Shown piece by piece: positions 10,967 through 39,515 of a stretch of 64,000 nt of DNA. How positions within the stretch are numbered: the stretch's first letter is position 1; each line of letters begins with the position of its first letter. This DNA is from Planomonospora sp. ID82291. GTDB lineage: Bacteria; Actinomycetota; Actinomycetes; Streptosporangiales; Streptosporangiaceae. The notes beneath the pieces were generated by a model, which saw only the letters and a list, made by a program, of their open reading frames with translations, was not told the DNA's origin and did no database searches. Position numbers and translations under genes: made by a program. The stretch spans positions 682,001-746,000 of the forward strand of contig NZ_JABTEX010000003.1 in the NCBI RefSeq assembly GCF_015711645.1. The letters are read 5' to 3'.

Positions 10967-11881
10967 ATGGCCATGGACTCCCCAGCCGTCGAGATCATCG
11001 ATCTGGTCAAACGGTACGGCCGAACGACCGCGATCGACGGCCTGAGCCTGCGCGCCGCCCGCGGCGCGGTCACCGCCGTGCTCGGCCCCAACGGCGCGGG
11101 CAAGACCTCCACCGTCGAGATCTGCGAGGGCTTCCGGCGCCCGGACGGCGGCACGGTCAGCGTGCTCGGCCTCGACCCGGCCCGGCCGGAGCTGCGGGCC
11201 CGGGTCGGCGTGATGCTCCAGTCCGGGGGCGTGCCTCCGGCGATGCGCTGCGGCGAGTGGCTGCGGCTGGTGGCCCGCTTCTACGCCCACCCGCTCGACC
11301 CGGCGGCGCTGCTGGACCGGCTCGGGCTGGCCGAGCACGCCCGCACGCCGTACCGGAGGCTGTCGGGGGGCCAGCAGCAGCGCGTCTCGCTGGCCGCGGC
11401 CGTGATCGGCCGCCCGGAGCTGGTCTTCCTCGACGAGCCGACCGCCGGGCTGGACCCCCAGGCCCGCCACGCCTGCTGGGAGCTGGTCGCCGCCCTGCGG
11501 GCCGCGGGGGTGTCGGTGGTGCTCACCACCCACCACATGGACGAGGCCGAGAAGCTCTCCGACCACGTGGTGATCATCGATCACGGCCGCGTGGTGGCCG
11601 AGGGCACCCCCGCCTCGCTCACCGGCGCCGAGCGGCAGCTGCGCTTCCGCGCCCGGCCGGGGCTCGCCCTGGACGAACTGCTCACCGCGCTGCCCGCGGG
11701 CAGCGCGGCCAAGGAGTCCCCCGCGGGGCACTACATCATCGAAGGGCAGGTCGGCCCCGAGCTGCTGGCGACCGTGACGGCCTGGTGCGCCGCCGAGGGC
11801 GTCACCGCCGACGACCTCAGCATCGAGCGCCGCACCCTGGAGGACGTCTTCCTCGAACTGACCGGCCGGGAGCTGCGATGA
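10967..11881 (+). CDS. ABC transporter ATP-binding protein (drug/ABC-2 exporter type)
   Basis: ATPase of an ABC-2 exporter, 304 aa. Walker A GPNGAGKTST, signature LSGGQQQRVSLA, Walker B LVFLDEPTAGLDPQ and the His switch TTHHMDEAE are all present; the last 80 residues form the C-terminal extension typical of DrrA/CcmA-like exporters. ATG 10967 (MAMDSPAVEIIDLVKRYG) is favoured over longer frames. Its stop overlaps the start of the permease gene by four bases (ATGA), so the two form one operon. Substrate unknown. Confidence 0.92.
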   Translation: MAMDSPAVEIIDLVKRYGRTTAIDGLSLRAARGAVTAVLGPNGAGKTSTVEICEGFRRPDGGTVSVLGLDPARPELRARVGVMLQSGGVPPAMRCGEWLRLVARFYAHPLDPAALLDRLGLAEHARTPYRRLSGGQQQRVSLAAAVIGRPELVFLDEPTAGLDPQARHACWELVAALRAAGVSVVLTTHHMDEAEKLSDHVVIIDHGRVVAEGTPASLTGAERQLRFRARPGLALDELLTALPAGSAAKESPAGHYIIEGQVGPELLATVTAWCAAEGVTADDLSIERRTLEDVFLELTGRELR

Positions 11882-24569: not shown

Positions 24570-26177
24570 ATGACCGACCAGGAGCAGGTGGGCACCCCCG
24601 AGGAGTCCGTGGCCGCCGCATCGGCGGCCGCGGTCACCGGCACCACCGAGGAGGTCGTGGCGGCCAACCCGCTGCGCGACCCCCGCGACAAGCGCCTGCC
24701 CCGCGTGGCGGGACCGTGTGTACTGGTCCTGTTCGGCGTGACGGGCGACCTGGCGCGCAAGAAACTGCTCCCGGCGATCTACGACCTGGCGAACCGGGGG
24801 CTGCTGCCCCCGGGCTTCTCCCTGGTCGGTTTCGCCCGCCGCGACTGGGCCGACCAGGACTTCGCGAAGCTGACGTACGACGCGGTCAAGCAGCACGCGC
24901 GCACGCCGTTCCGCGAGGAGGTCTGGAAGCAGTTGTCGGAGGGCGTCTTCTTCTGTCCGGGCGAGTTCACCGACGACGGTGCGTTCGACGCGCTGGCGAT
25001 GATGCTCAAGGAGATCGACGAGACCCGGGGCACCGGCGGCAACTACGGGTTCTACCTGTCGGTGCCGCCGAAGTTCTTCCCGGTCGTGGTCGAGCAGCTC
25101 AAGCGGACCGATCTGGCGCACGGCCCCGCCGGGGCCTGGCGCCGGGTGGTCATCGAGAAGCCGTTCGGGCACGACCTGAAGAGCGCCCACGAGCTCAACG
25201 CGATCACCAGCGCGGTCTTCCCGGAGAGCTCGGTGTTCCGCATCGACCACTACCTGGGCAAGGAGACCGTCCAGAACGTCATGGCGCTGCGCTTCGCCAA
25301 CAACCTGTTCGAGCCGATCTGGAACCGCGGGTACGTCGACCACGTCCAGATCACGATGGCCGAGGACATCGGCATCGGCGGCCGGGCGGGCTACTACGAC
25401 GGCATCGGCGCGGCCCGCGACGTGATCCAGAACCACCTGCTCCAGCTGCTGGCGCTGGTCGCGATGGAGGACCCGACCTCCTTCGACGCCGACTCGCTGC
25501 GCCGGGAGAAGGAGAAGGTGCTCAAGGCGGTGCAGCTCCCGCACGACCTGTCGCTGGCCACCGCCCGCGGGCGGTACGCCGCGGGCTGGCAGGGCGGTGA
25601 GCCGGTCGTCGGCTACGTCGAGGAGGAGGGCATCCCCGCCGACTCCATCACCGAGACCTACGCCGCGATCAAGCTGGAGATCGCCAACCGCCGCTGGGCG
25701 GGGGTGCCGTTCTACCTGCGCACCGGCAAGCGGCTGGGCCGCCGGACGACCGAGGTCGCCGTGGTGTTCCAGAAGGCGCCGCACCTGCCGTTCAGCAAGG
25801 ACGACACCGAGATCCTGGGGCACAACGCCCTGGTCATCCGGGTCCAGCCGGACGAGGGCATCACCGTGCGGTTCGGCTCCAAGGTGCCGGGCACCGCGAT
25901 GGAGGTCCGGGACGTCTCGATGGACTTCGCCTACGGCGAGTCGTTCATGGAGTCCTCCCCCGAGGCCTACGAGCGGCTGCTGCTGGACGTGCTGATCGGC
26001 GACCCGCCGCTCTTCCCGCACCAGCGCGAGGTGGAGCTGTCGTGGAAGATCCTCGACCCGATCGAGGAGTTCTGGGCCTCGCAGGGCCCGCCGGAGGAGT
26101 ATCCGGCGGGCAGCTGGGGCCCGGCCTCGGCCGACGCGATGATGGCCCGCGACGGACGCGTCTGGAGGAGGCTCTAA
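24570..26177 (+). CDS. zwf: Glucose-6-phosphate 1-dehydrogenase
   Basis: 535-aa NADP-linked dehydrogenase that starts the oxidative pentose phosphate branch. Nucleotide-binding GVTGDLARKKLLPAIYDL, the active-site RIDHYLGKETVQN and VIEKPFGHDL are intact. The first 45 residues are an acidic, Ala-rich extension. The ATG directly follows the pgi stop. It is expected to work with OpcA, encoded next. Confidence 0.97.
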   Translation: MTDQEQVGTPEESVAAASAAAVTGTTEEVVAANPLRDPRDKRLPRVAGPCVLVLFGVTGDLARKKLLPAIYDLANRGLLPPGFSLVGFARRDWADQDFAKLTYDAVKQHARTPFREEVWKQLSEGVFFCPGEFTDDGAFDALAMMLKEIDETRGTGGNYGFYLSVPPKFFPVVVEQLKRTDLAHGPAGAWRRVVIEKPFGHDLKSAHELNAITSAVFPESSVFRIDHYLGKETVQNVMALRFANNLFEPIWNRGYVDHVQITMAEDIGIGGRAGYYDGIGAARDVIQNHLLQLLALVAMEDPTSFDADSLRREKEKVLKAVQLPHDLSLATARGRYAAGWQGGEPVVGYVEEEGIPADSITETYAAIKLEIANRRWAGVPFYLRTGKRLGRRTTEVAVVFQKAPHLPFSKDDTEILGHNALVIRVQPDEGITVRFGSKVPGTAMEVRDVSMDFAYGESFMESSPEAYERLLLDVLIGDPPLFPHQREVELSWKILDPIEEFWASQGPPEEYPAGSWGPASADAMMARDGRVWRRL

Positions 26178-26179
26178 CG

Positions 26180-27091
26180 ATGACGAGCTTCATGCTCACC
26201 GACACCACCGCGTCGAAGATCTCCTCCCAGCTCACCCATCTGCGCCACCAGCTGGGCAGCCCGGCGGTCGGCATGGTGCTGACCCTGGTGGTGCTCTGCG
26301 ACGAGGGCAGCCAGTACGACGCGGTGCGCGCCGCGACCGAGGCGGCCCGCGAGCACCCCTCGCGGATCCTGGTCGTCATCACCCGCGGCGCCGACGAGCC
26401 GAACCGGCTCGACGCGGAGCTGCGGGTCGGCGAGAGCACGCCGGGCGAGGTGATCCTGCTCCGGCTGTACGGCGAGCTGACCCGGCACGCCGACTCGGTG
26501 GTCAGCCCTCTGCTGCTCACCGACACGCCGGTGGTCGCCTGGTGGCCGGGGGAGTCCCCGGAGGTGCCCGCCGAGGACCCGGTCGGGGCGCTCGCCCAGC
26601 GCCGGATCGTCGACGCCCGTGCGGCGACGCCGTCGGTGCGGGCGATCGCGAGCCGGGCCCGGGCCTACGTGCCGGGCGACACCGATCTGGCGTGGACCCG
26701 GCTGACGCCGTGGCGGAGCCTGCTGGCCGCCGCGTTCGACCAGCCGGTGGGCAAGGTCAAGAGGGGCCTGGTGGAGGGCTCGCCCGACCACTCCAGCGCC
26801 CCGCTGCTGGCCGCCTGGCTCGGTGAGCGGCTGGGCGCCCCGATGAAGGTGGCGGAGTCCGGCGGCCCCGGCCTGACGGCGGTCAGGCTGACCACCGCCG
26901 AGGGCGACATCGTCATCAGCCGCTCCGACGCGCGGCTGGCCACGCTGTCGCGCCCGGGGCAGCCGAACCGCCAGGTGGCCCTGACCCGGCGGCCGACGGC
27001 GGAACTGCTCGCCGAGGAGCTGCGCCGGCTGGACCCGGACGAGGTCTACGAGGCGGCGATCCGGCGGGTCGCCCGCACGCACAAGTCCTGA
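26180..27091 (+). CDS. opcA: Glucose-6-phosphate dehydrogenase assembly protein OpcA
   Basis: 303-aa OpcA, the actinobacterial and cyanobacterial partner needed for full G6PDH activity and redox control. The sequence TPVVAWWPGESPEVPAEDPVGALAQRRIVDA and DLAWTRLTPWRSLLAAAFDQP is characteristic. ATG 26180 is two bases after the zwf stop, with GGAGGAGG inside the zwf end as ribosome site. Followed by a strong terminator-like hairpin. Confidence 0.95.
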   Translation: MTSFMLTDTTASKISSQLTHLRHQLGSPAVGMVLTLVVLCDEGSQYDAVRAATEAAREHPSRILVVITRGADEPNRLDAELRVGESTPGEVILLRLYGELTRHADSVVSPLLLTDTPVVAWWPGESPEVPAEDPVGALAQRRIVDARAATPSVRAIASRARAYVPGDTDLAWTRLTPWRSLLAAAFDQPVGKVKRGLVEGSPDHSSAPLLAAWLGERLGAPMKVAESGGPGLTAVRLTTAEGDIVISRSDARLATLSRPGQPNRQVALTRRPTAELLAEELRRLDPDEVYEAAIRRVARTHKS

Positions 27092-27132
27092 CGGGAGGGC
27101 GTCCCGCGGCCGGTCCGCGGGACGCCCTCCCG
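27092..27132 (+). terminator. Hairpin terminator after opcA
   Basis: An 18-bp perfect stem (27092-27109 with 27115-27132) and a five-base loop begin directly at the end of opcA. There is no U tract, but the stem is long enough for a GC-rich actinomycete terminator. It could end or attenuate the tkt-opcA transcript before pgl. Confidence 0.75.
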
Positions 27133-27222
27133 CCGGGTCCCGCGGCTCCGGGCCTTCCGGTTCCTCCGCGACCCCGCGACCCCCGCGGGTCTTCCGATTC
27201 CTCGAATCAGAGAGAGCGCGCT

Positions 27223-27999
27223 GTGAGTGTTCCCAACGTCGTCGTCCACCGCGACGCCGACATGCTGGCCAAGGCCGTCGCCGCCCGGGTGATCACCCGT
27301 CTGGTCGACGCGCAGTCGGCCACGGGCTCGGCCTCCCTGGTCCTGACCGGCGGCACCGTGGGCATCGCCACCCTGGCCGAGATCGCCGCCAGCCCGGCCC
27401 GCGACGCCGTCGACTGGCGCAACCTGGACGTCTGGTGGGGCGACGAGCGCTTCCTGCCCTCCGGCGACCCCGACCGCAACGAGACGGGCGCCCGCGCGGC
27501 GCTGCTGGACCACGTCGACCTCGACCCGGCGCGCGTGCACGTGATGCGCGGCCCCGACGCCGGGCTGACCGCCGAGGAGTCGGCGGACGCCTACGCCGAG
27601 GAGCTGCGCCGCGCCGCCCGGCCCGAGGACCACGGCCCGGCGCCCTCCTTCGACGTGCTGCTGCTGGGCATGGGCCCGGACGCCCACGTGGCCTCGCTGT
27701 TCCCGGAGATGCCCGCGCTGTACGACACCCGGCCCGCGGTCGCGGTGCACGGCTCCCCCAAGCCGCCGCCCACCCGGATCTCGCTGACGATGCCGGTCAT
27801 CCGGGGCGCGCGCGAGGTGTGGGTGGTCGCGGCGGGCGCGGACAAGGCGGGAGCCGTACGGCTGGCGCTGTCGGACGACTCGGGACCGGTGCAGGTCCCG
27901 GCGGCCGGCGCCCGGGGGCGGCGGCGCACCCTGTTCCTGCTGGACCGCGCCTCCGCGGCGAAGATCCCCGCCTCCCTGAGCCGGATCTCCTCTCCCTGA
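27223..27999 (+). CDS. pgl: 6-phosphogluconolactonase
   Basis: DevB-type lactonase of 258 aa hydrolysing 6-phosphogluconolactone, the product of Zwf. Recognisable parts are LTGGTVGIATLAEI, VDWRNLDVWWGDERFLP, DPDRNETGARAALLDHV and LLLGMGPDAHVASLFPE. Starts at GTG 27223. It is separated from opcA by the 18-bp-stem hairpin and 90 bases, so it may have its own promoter. Confidence 0.95.
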   Translation: MSVPNVVVHRDADMLAKAVAARVITRLVDAQSATGSASLVLTGGTVGIATLAEIAASPARDAVDWRNLDVWWGDERFLPSGDPDRNETGARAALLDHVDLDPARVHVMRGPDAGLTAEESADAYAEELRRAARPEDHGPAPSFDVLLLGMGPDAHVASLFPEMPALYDTRPAVAVHGSPKPPPTRISLTMPVIRGAREVWVVAAGADKAGAVRLALSDDSGPVQVPAAGARGRRRTLFLLDRASAAKIPASLSRISSP

Positions 28000-28933: not shown

Positions 28934-28970
28934 GCGAGCCCGGTCGCGGTCGCGGCCCTCCCGCCGGGCC

Positions 28971-29010
28971 GGTCACCGCCCGCACGGACCGGTCACCGCC
29001 CGCACGGACC
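28971..29010. repeat. Two exact tandem 20-bp repeats
   Basis: GGTCACCGCCCGCACGGACC occurs at 28971-28990 and 28991-29010, with a degenerate third copy (GTCACCGCCTCCACGGACC) about 45 bases downstream. Each unit has dyad character (GGTC...GACC). No spacers, so not a CRISPR; possibly a site for a DNA-binding protein or a slippage product. Confidence 0.7.
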
Positions 29011-29089
29011 GGTGGCGACCGTCTCCGGTCCGTCCTCGACCACCTCGGGCCCGTCACCGCCTCCACGGACCGGTCGCCGGGGCCGGGCC

Positions 29090-29218
29090 TACATCAGCGC
29101 CGACCCGTCGGCGGCGTCCGCCGAGGACTGGGACGCCGGCCGCTTCGCGGCCGAGCACCTGAGCGCCTACCTGGGCGAGTGCGCCGGCTGGGCGGCCGAG
29201 GACGGACGGATCGGGTAG
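29090..29218 (+). pseudogene. C-terminal relic of an unidentified protein
   Basis: A 43-codon stretch (AYISADPSAASAEDWDAGR ... GECAGWAAEDGRIG, stop) reads like a well-folded protein C-terminus with normal actinomycete codon use. Upstream of it the frame dissolves into repeat-encoded low-complexity sequence with no good start. It is most likely the tail of a deleted gene. The family was not recognised. Confidence 0.35.
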
Positions 29219-29298: not shown

Positions 29299-29895
29299 TC
29301 ATCCGCGGGCGGCCTCCGGCGGCGGGTCGCCGGTGAGGGCGGCGATCACGGCGCCGACCAGGTGCTCCTCGACTTCGTCGGCGCTCCTGCCCCGGTCGGC
29401 GGTCAGCTGCTCCCAGACGGGGACCGAGGTCATCGCCCACGCCAGGTCGGCGGCGACGTCCGGGGCCAGGCCGGGCCTCAGCCGCCCGGCGGTTCCCAGC
29501 CGGCGCGCGGCGAGGAGGAACCCCTCGTGGAGCTCGCCCATCCGGTCGTTCCAGGCCGCGGCGGCGTCGGGGTCGTCACGACGGGAGGCCAGCAGCACCG
29601 AGGCCACCGGATGGATCGTCGCCGCGTAGCGCAGCCAGGCGCGCAGGAAGGCGCGGAACGCCTCGACGGGCTCCTCCCCGGTCAACGCCCTCTCGCAGCG
29701 CGCGCGGATCCCGTCGCGTTCGTCCATGTCCCGCACGACGGCCACGAGCAGGCTCGCCCGGGAGCCGAAATGGAGGTAGACCGCCTGCCGGGAGATCCCG
29801 GCCGCGCGGGCCACATCGGCCATCGAGACCCGGGGCCCCTGCTCGGTGATGAGCCGCCGGGCGGTCTCCAGGATGCGCGATCGCGTGCTTGACAC
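29299..29895 (-). CDS. TetR-family transcriptional regulator
   Basis: 198-aa TetR regulator with N-terminal HTH (VSMADVARAAGISRQAVYLHFGSRASLL) and a ligand-binding C-terminal domain. It starts with GTG 29895, inside the first of two identical 18-bp palindromes shared with the divergent SnoaL-like gene. The predicted -10 (TATGCT, 29907-29902) places the transcript start at about the GTG itself, so the mRNA is probably leaderless. Likely controls itself and the divergent gene. Confidence 0.9.
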   Translation of the reverse strand: MSSTRSRILETARRLITEQGPRVSMADVARAAGISRQAVYLHFGSRASLLVAVVRDMDERDGIRARCERALTGEEPVEAFRAFLRAWLRYAATIHPVASVLLASRRDDPDAAAAWNDRMGELHEGFLLAARRLGTAGRLRPGLAPDVAADLAWAMTSVPVWEQLTADRGRSADEVEEHLVGAVIAALTGDPPPEAARG

Positions 29896-29904
29896 GTGTC
29901 AAGC
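29887..29904. promoter_or_regulatory. Palindromic operator 1 (TetR/SnoaL intergenic)
   Basis: GCTTGACACGTGTCAAGC is a perfect 18-bp palindrome covering the TetR start codon and containing the TTGACA -35 of the divergent plus-strand promoter (29889-29894, N17, TAGCTT at 29912-29917). An identical copy lies 27 bp away. A TetR dimer site is the natural reading. Confidence 0.85.
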
Positions 29905-29913
29905 ATAGCCCTA

Positions 29914-29931
29914 GCTTGACACGTGTCAAGC
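29914..29931. promoter_or_regulatory. Palindromic operator 2 (TetR/SnoaL intergenic)
   Basis: Second exact copy of the 18-bp palindrome. On the minus strand its TTGACA (29929-29924), 16-bp spacer and TATGCT (29907-29902) form the promoter of the TetR gene. Binding at both copies would shut both divergent promoters. Confidence 0.85.
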
Positions 29932-29955
29932 AGAAGGCTCCTGAGGAGGCACCCG

Positions 29956-30363
29956 ATGGACACCACCCACCCGGCGGCCGTCGCCGCGCTCACCGCGATG
30001 GGCGCGGTCGGCGCCGGCGACCGGGACGCCTGGCTCGCCTGCTACGCGCCGGACGCCGTGCTCCACGACCCGGTCGGCGGCTCCCCGCTGGACCCCGACG
30101 GCACCGGACTGCGGGGGACGGCCGCCCTCGAACGCTTCTGGGATCTCACCGTCGCCGCCAACGAGGTGCGCTTCGAGATCGCCGCGGTGCATCCGGCGGG
30201 CGATGAGGCAGCGGTCGTGGCCTCGGTCTCCGTCCGCTTCCCCAGCGGCGCCTCCGCCGGCTACGACGGCGTCTTCGTCTACCGTGCAGGCGGCGACGGG
30301 CGGATCGTCTCGCTGCGCGCCTACTGGGACCTGGGACCCGTCCTGTCCGCACTCGGCGGCTGA
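29956..30363 (+). CDS. SnoaL-like / NTF2-fold protein
   Basis: 135-aa cone-shaped NTF2-like protein (SnoaL/ketosteroid-isomerase superfamily): AVGAGDRDAWLACYAPDAVLHDPVG near the N-terminus and DGVFVYRAGGDGRIVSLRAYWDL at the C-terminus. Members are isomerases, cyclases or small-molecule binders; no specific reaction can be assigned. ATG 29956 has an ideal GAGGAGG site. It is divergent from, and presumably repressed by, the TetR regulator. Confidence 0.85.
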   Translation: MDTTHPAAVAALTAMGAVGAGDRDAWLACYAPDAVLHDPVGGSPLDPDGTGLRGTAALERFWDLTVAANEVRFEIAAVHPAGDEAAVVASVSVRFPSGASAGYDGVFVYRAGGDGRIVSLRAYWDLGPVLSALGG

Positions 30364-38828: not shown

Positions 38829-39515
38829 TCAGGCCTCGGGGACCGCCGCGGCCAGAAGCCGCGCCAGCTCGGCCGGCTTGGTGATCATGGGCCAGTGGCC
38901 CGCGTCGAGGTCCACGAATTCGAGGTTCTTGGCCCTGGCCAGCTCGGGCACGTCACCGGCGGCGATCCACTCCCGGGCCTGGGCGGGGGTGAACTCGGGG
39001 CACACGACGAGGACGGGGACGGCGAACCGCCGCTCGTCCGTCAGGCGCACCACGCCCTGCGCCACCCCGGCGGGGACGGGAAGCGCCGCGGACGCGAACT
39101 CCCGCCGGGCCTCCTCACCGAGGTCGGCGGAGTCCGGTCCTTCGAACGGACCCCAGCCGGGGAAGGGCATCACGCCGTCCTCCAGCGCGAAGAAGTCGGC
39201 GTAGGCCTGCCCGTCGGCGGCCGGGAAGCCGCCGACGAGCGCGACCTTGGCGACCCGCTCCGGGCGCGCGTCGGCCGCCAGCCAGGCCAGGGTGCACGCG
39301 GCGGAATGCCCCACCACCATGGGCGCTCCGGCCGCCGAGTCCACGGCGGAGAGCACGGCCGCCACCTGGTCGTCCAGGGTGGCCGAGGCCGATCCGTCGC
39401 CCTGCCCGGGCAGGGCGACCGGCACGGGGCGGTGGCCGAGCGCCTCGAGTTCGGCCGCGACGTCGCTCCACGCCGATCCGTCGAGCCACAGTCCGGCGAT
39501 GAGCAGGATGTCCAT
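38829..39515 (-). CDS. Alpha/beta hydrolase
   Basis: 228-aa alpha/beta-hydrolase of the small esterase type. The nucleophile elbow is GHSAA, the catalytic His is in LDAGHWPMITKP, and an Asp/Glu is available near VVCPEFTP. The N-terminal ILLIAGLWLDGSAWSDVAAEL is typical. The start is ATG 39515 with AAGGA-type site. Physiological substrate unknown. It converges with the glycosidase-like gene. Confidence 0.83.
   Translation of the reverse strand: MDILLIAGLWLDGSAWSDVAAELEALGHRPVPVALPGQGDGSASATLDDQVAAVLSAVDSAAGAPMVVGHSAACTLAWLAADARPERVAKVALVGGFPAADGQAYADFFALEDGVMPFPGWGPFEGPDSADLGEEARREFASAALPVPAGVAQGVVRLTDERRFAVPVLVVCPEFTPAQAREWIAAGDVPELARAKNLEFVDLDAGHWPMITKPAELARLLAAAVPEA

Follow-up and report, generated by a model that had tools for sequence, protein, structure and literature searches.

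Twin-operator divergent TetR switches and leaderless TetR genes are both already known. In the tet system of Tn10, the repressor gene tetR and its target tetA diverge from a short gap with two palindromic operators (tetO1 and tetO2), the promoters overlap these operators, and the repressor dimer is described as repressing both genes (PMC3511530, PMC3037858). An efflux target is not required in the wider TetR class, where enzymes make up 60% of likely targets in the account of PMC3511530, which also reports repression of the divergent neighbor by all five Streptomyces TetR regulators that were tested and lay within 200 bp of it. The tetR gene of Tn1721 and acuR of Rhodobacter are described as TetR-type genes that lack both a leader and a Shine-Dalgarno sequence, and the translation level of acuR is below that of its downstream genes (PMC3017554). 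In E. coli acrA/acrR, a TetR-family autorepressor and its target are expressed from one overlapping promoter, of a class with transcription starts on either side of a shared -10 box or within it. According to the same description, polymerase bound one way blocks the other, which matters only under strong transcription, and AcrR represses both RNAs (PMC12825309).

We analyzed a stretch of 64,000 nucleotides from Planomonospora sp. ID82291 (contig NZ_JABTEX010000003.1, positions 682,001 to 746,000; hereafter the window), in which a TetR-family gene and a ketosteroid-isomerase/SnoaL-like gene diverge from a shared control region (Table 1). The two genes very probably form a self-contained, autoregulated two-gene switch, in which a TetR dimer would act on two identical palindromes. 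With the operators placed in a gap of 60 bp, below 200 bp, the locus has the layout of a divergent autoregulated TetR switch. It resembles Tn10 tet in the divergent repressor and target, the pair of palindromic operators close together between them and the promoters that overlap these operators, and repression of both genes by the dimer is predicted here as well. It differs in that the target is isomerase-like instead of an efflux pump, that the two sites are identical and each carry a -35 box, one of them also a start codon, and that a single tetR promoter is predicted as opposed to two in Tn10. As in Tn1721 tetR and acuR, the repressor gene appears to lack a leader and Shine-Dalgarno sequence; unlike it, acuR is first in its operon and has a described operator consisting of one inverted repeat with 8-bp arms (PMC3017554). 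The original prediction had put this arrangement forward as notable; in the light of Tn10 tet, Tn1721 tetR and acuR it is of a known kind. The particular member and its operator were not found in print: a search of the open-licence full-text literature for the operator sequence (a 14-mer and further strings) returned nothing, and a search of open-licence literature for a TetR paired with a ketosteroid-isomerase-like gene returned nothing relevant by title.

Table 1. Features of the tetR/isomerase-like locus (positions in the window).
Feature	Position	Strand	Remarks
TetR-family repressor gene	29299..29895	-	198 aa; GTG start within operator 1; predicted leaderless
tetR start codon GTG	29893..29895	-	Predicted transcription start, 7 nt past the last -10 base
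Operator 1	29887..29904		Palindrome GCTTGACACGTGTCAAGC; contains tetR codons 1 to 3 and the -35 box of the plus promoter
Plus promoter -35 box TTGACA	29889..29894	+	Isomerase-like gene; unchanged in 16/16 distinct promoters
Minus promoter -10 box TATGCT	29902..29907	-	tetR; 16-bp spacer; TA and final T unchanged in 16/16
Plus promoter -10 box TAGCTT	29912..29917	+	17-bp spacer; unchanged in 16/16
Operator 2	29914..29931		Same palindrome; contains the -35 box of the minus promoter and bases 3 to 6 of the -10 box of the plus promoter
Minus promoter -35 box TTGACA	29924..29929	-	tetR; TTGACA in 8/16, TTGACG in 8/16
Shine-Dalgarno GGAGG of isomerase-like gene	29945..29949	+	6 nt before the start in the window
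Ketosteroid-isomerase/SnoaL-like gene, presumed target	29956..30363	+	135 aa, ATG at 29956; SnoaL_2 7.4e-17

Sequence inspection and a repeat search identified the two perfect 18-bp copies of GCTTGACACGTGTCAAGC, 27 bp apart, just as had been claimed. The identical repeat extends to 19 nt (29887-29905 and 29914-29932), and without a gap the palindrome of operator 1 reaches 20 bp (29886-29905, with flanking T/A) and that of operator 2 18 bp. Together with a 9-bp linker the palindromes form a 45-bp element, which occupies part of the gap and reaches nine bases into tetR, and the G+C content of 29886-29932 is 51%, against 73% for the window. Perfect palindromes as such are not surprising in a sequence of this G+C content: under a first-order Markov model, 4.9 of at least 16 bp are expected in the window and 9 were found (both operators counted), and for those of at least 18 bp the numbers are 1.3 and 4. 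A pair of identical palindromes 27 bp apart is less expected by chance than single palindromes. For the operator 16-mer at up to 3 mismatches, 0.12 matches are expected per window, and at least two occurred in one of 100 shuffles; both real matches are exact. The longest perfect palindromes of the window are two G+C-rich ones of 24 bp (11685-11708 and 39396-39419), which are possibly terminators, and direct repeats resembling CCGCACGGACCGGTCACCG, short and imperfect, were seen by eye at 28970-29090, 3' of a hydrolase gene.

Each half of the palindrome contains TTGACA, and a -10 box is present only for the inward-facing copies, so that, as proposed, each operator gives the -35 box to one of two divergent promoters. 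The intervening -10 boxes of the original prediction are both in the sequence with an invariant TA, and of the two only TATGCT is called by a consensus scan of the window (10 of 12 bases matched for the minus promoter; shuffle mean 0.1). The scan did not call the plus promoter, because TAGCTT is a weak box that matches TATAAT at only three of six positions. The predicted promoters overlap almost wholly, both lying within 41 bp (29889-29929), so that polymerase would take one direction only at a time. In this the locus is like acrA/acrR, where a TetR-family autorepressor (predicted here) and its target also share one overlapping promoter; it falls outside that class of bidirectional promoters with a shared -10 box, as its -10 boxes are separate and each has its own conserved TA (PMC12825309). 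A plus-strand transcription start at about 29924 had been proposed, but the start could not be fixed there, since the 16 promoters divide evenly between T and C at this base (8 each); the neighboring G at 29923 or 29925 would fit better.

These promoter comparisons come from 28 loci, 27 of which could be aligned (L071, without a TetR match, was left out); 11 of the 27 duplicated the promoter of another, leaving 16 distinct sequences. They contain no insertion or deletion anywhere in the stretch that runs from the tetR start through operator 2. Operator 1 is recognizable in all 16 with at most 2 changes each, and operator 2 in all 16 with at most 1. Over 29888-29895 of operator 1 the sole change is C to T at 29895 in two sequences, by which the GTG start of tetR becomes ATG. 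Since operator and promoter constraints overlap, only the TA doublets of the linker speak for the promoters alone: the invariant linker columns are the two TA doublets (29906-29907 and 29912-29913) with which the -10 boxes begin, and no others, and four invariant columns on both doublets are one of 126 possible placements in 9 bp. The last base of each -10 box (29902 and 29917) is invariant in all 16 as well. As the 16 sequences are related, these counts overstate their independence; the statistics ignore the tree, and shared descent could explain part of the conservation.

Fourteen named loci with a TetR orthologue belong to Planomonospora, Planobispora, Nonomuraea, Actinoplanes and Streptomyces, in a collection scan that detects close relatives only. 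A larger conserved cluster around the pair was considered and ruled out: beyond the pair and its overlapping frames, no open reading frame was matched in at least 11 of the 13 other named loci among the 60 best rows, which reach down to 10 loci, and for five other neighbors in the window the count did not exceed 3 of the 14. In a comparison that involves L052, L053-L057, L058 and L059, the TetR of the window shares 94% identity with its counterpart in Planomonospora parontospora and 84-89% with the Nonomuraea proteins, but only 70-72% with those of other Planomonospora, although neighboring genes are shared with Planobispora and Planomonospora. The tetR/isomerase-like pair may thus have been replaced in place. 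Farther away, the gene order at 24570-27999 resembles, from the translations, what we take to be glucose-6-phosphate dehydrogenase, an OpcA-like protein and 6-phosphogluconolactonase.

Within a family sample of 200 genomes, that of the window included and some of them incomplete, a close TetR orthologue (at least 64% identity) is present in 9, the next best match listed having 39% identity. The twin sites (at most 1 mismatch, 27-bp spacing) occur in all 9 of these genomes. None of the other 191 has two sites and 2 have one (Fisher p 8.5e-16, ignoring relatedness). A degenerate pattern searched against 345 genomes of the order matched in 19: two sites were found in 11, a single site in 6, and one site in G015 and G057, because there the partner departs from the pattern. 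All four further genomes with a site pair from this search have a TetR orthologue. The palindromes could in principle serve some other, unlinked regulator while the adjacent TetR binds elsewhere, and single sites do occur in seven genomes (G068 and G159 of the family sample; G035, G249, G277, G294 and G320 of the order search), with neither gene in the loci of about 3 kb around them except for a weak 29% TetR match in L038. For that same lack of both genes these single sites were rejected as further members; G249, G277, G294 and G320 stood outside the genome-wide TetR search. Site pairs, in contrast, are found only alongside a TetR orthologue, in the family sample as well as in the further genomes, and for an unlinked regulator one would expect further close sites in the genome of the window, which has none; we regard this explanation as highly improbable.

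The absence of such sites also bears on the reach of the predicted TetR switch. Further copies of the palindrome had been proposed as a way to find its regulon, and a search of the genome that contains the window, 7.58 Mb in 15 contigs, yielded no site besides these two at up to 2 mismatches. At 3 mismatches there were 6 sites, no excess over the 9 of a reversed-pattern control, and the two that were inspected (L003, L004) both lie within long open frames. A wider regulon was ruled out on these two counts, and the detectable regulon thus consists of the tetR/isomerase-like pair. Use of the same operator by distant TetR proteins was likewise ruled out: the genomes of 21 loci with TetRs of 28-39% identity (L014-L034) lack any site within 1 mismatch, and near the starts of these genes the operator palindrome is absent among the best palindromes listed (at most 4 each; none for 8 of the 21).

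The assignment of the repressor to the TetR family is based on a match to TetR_N (PF00440, 1.9e-14, 53.6 bits against a cut-off of 24). A match to an SbtR-like C-terminal domain is weak and below cut-off, and no NCBIfam model reaches its cut-off for this protein. The helix-turn-helix sequence SRQA(V/L)YLHF is found in all 16 TetR proteins.

As read from its -10 box, the predicted transcription start of tetR coincides with the initial base of its start codon in operator 1, where the original prediction had placed it. The start codon is retained throughout (GTG in 14, ATG in 2 of the 16 distinct sequences). An in-frame stop precedes it by 2 codons in 13 sequences and by 4, 4 and 6 codons in L013, L061 and L062, and in none of the 16 is there an alternative start in between. 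For leaderless translation in mycobacteria, an mRNA that begins with ATG or GTG is reported to be both required and sufficient, and purines make up 95% of the transcription starts in M. tuberculosis (PMC4633059); these are mycobacterial rules, applied here to another order. We consider it most likely, from the conserved sequence, that the tetR mRNA is leaderless and begins with the GTG at which its translation starts. Alternatively, the switch could be as described with the tetR mRNA starting some bases upstream, with a weak or no Shine-Dalgarno sequence. The distance from -10 box to transcription start differs among promoters, that of tetR being predicted from its -10 box, and in three of the 16 (L008, L013, L053) a four-base motif (GAGG or AGGA) is found 12-13 nt before the start codon (distance by eye), farther than usual; the other 13 have no Shine-Dalgarno-like motif within 20 nt. 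Against such a leader, the distance from the -10 box to the start codon is fixed in all 16, while the leader of the target ranges between 13 and 25 nt, the start codon begins with a purine in all 16, the upstream stop is close, and the mycobacterial rule on 5' ATG or GTG would suffice for translation. An upstream start is therefore unlikely, and the leaderless reading is kept below.

The presumed target lies in the same locus of 3-6.6 kb as tetR in all 27 aligned loci. Its leader after operator 2 was measured by eye (with an ambiguous start in L012), and a GGAGG-like sequence is found shortly 5' of its start in the compared sequences. By sequence, its closest solved relatives are a steroid delta-isomerase (5z3r, 3.5e-25) and Rv0760c (2a15, 5.4e-22). 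We take the catalytic residues of classical ketosteroid isomerase to be Asp38, Tyr14 and Asp99. In an alignment to 1ocv, Asp38 is kept, with Ala at Tyr14 and Phe at Asp99, and as two of the three are replaced the protein is termed isomerase-like. A leaderless start of this gene at the GTG at 29923 in operator 2 was rejected, as just 3 of the 16 sequences have this codon and have it in frame. In the window the frame is open from 29956 back to that GTG (29923-29956), an 11-residue extension that mirrors the tetR start and is probably due to chance.

In the proposed switch, a TetR-family dimer would bind both identical palindromes. Each of these provides the -35 box of one promoter and would cover the -10 box or start region of the other, so that the bound repressor would shut off the target as well as its own gene. 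A small ligand, plausibly related to the substrate of the isomerase-like protein, would free the repressor from the DNA, after which polymerase would fire mainly toward the target, firing one way excluding the other. The promoter of the target is the more strictly conserved one (17-bp spacer and invariant TTGACA). Together with the Shine-Dalgarno leader of the target, this would mean that induction yields more of the target and only a little of the repressor. The second operator might instead act in activation or looping, as some TetR-family members are described as activators (PMC6873888; AtrA, PMC3511530). Both sites lie on core promoters, however, where a bound dimer would block polymerase, and 27 bp is presumably too short for looping, which leaves this role barely credible and plain repression from both operators as the preferred reading.

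We advance only tentatively, as a rather doubtful extension, that the 45-bp element is a near-symmetric cassette, in which one palindrome used twice serves as repressor site, both -35 boxes and leaderless start codon, and that it moves as a unit among actinomycetes with a steroid- or polyketide-sensing TetR and its isomerase-like partner. The twin-operator switch opens no new kind of regulation. Its 45 bp bring operator, promoter and start-codon signals together, with a conserved record of the constraints on each base. Engineering in actinomycetes could draw on it for a compact repressor part, and what is encoded by the target gene gives a hint of a small-molecule sensor, for which one could look for the ligand.
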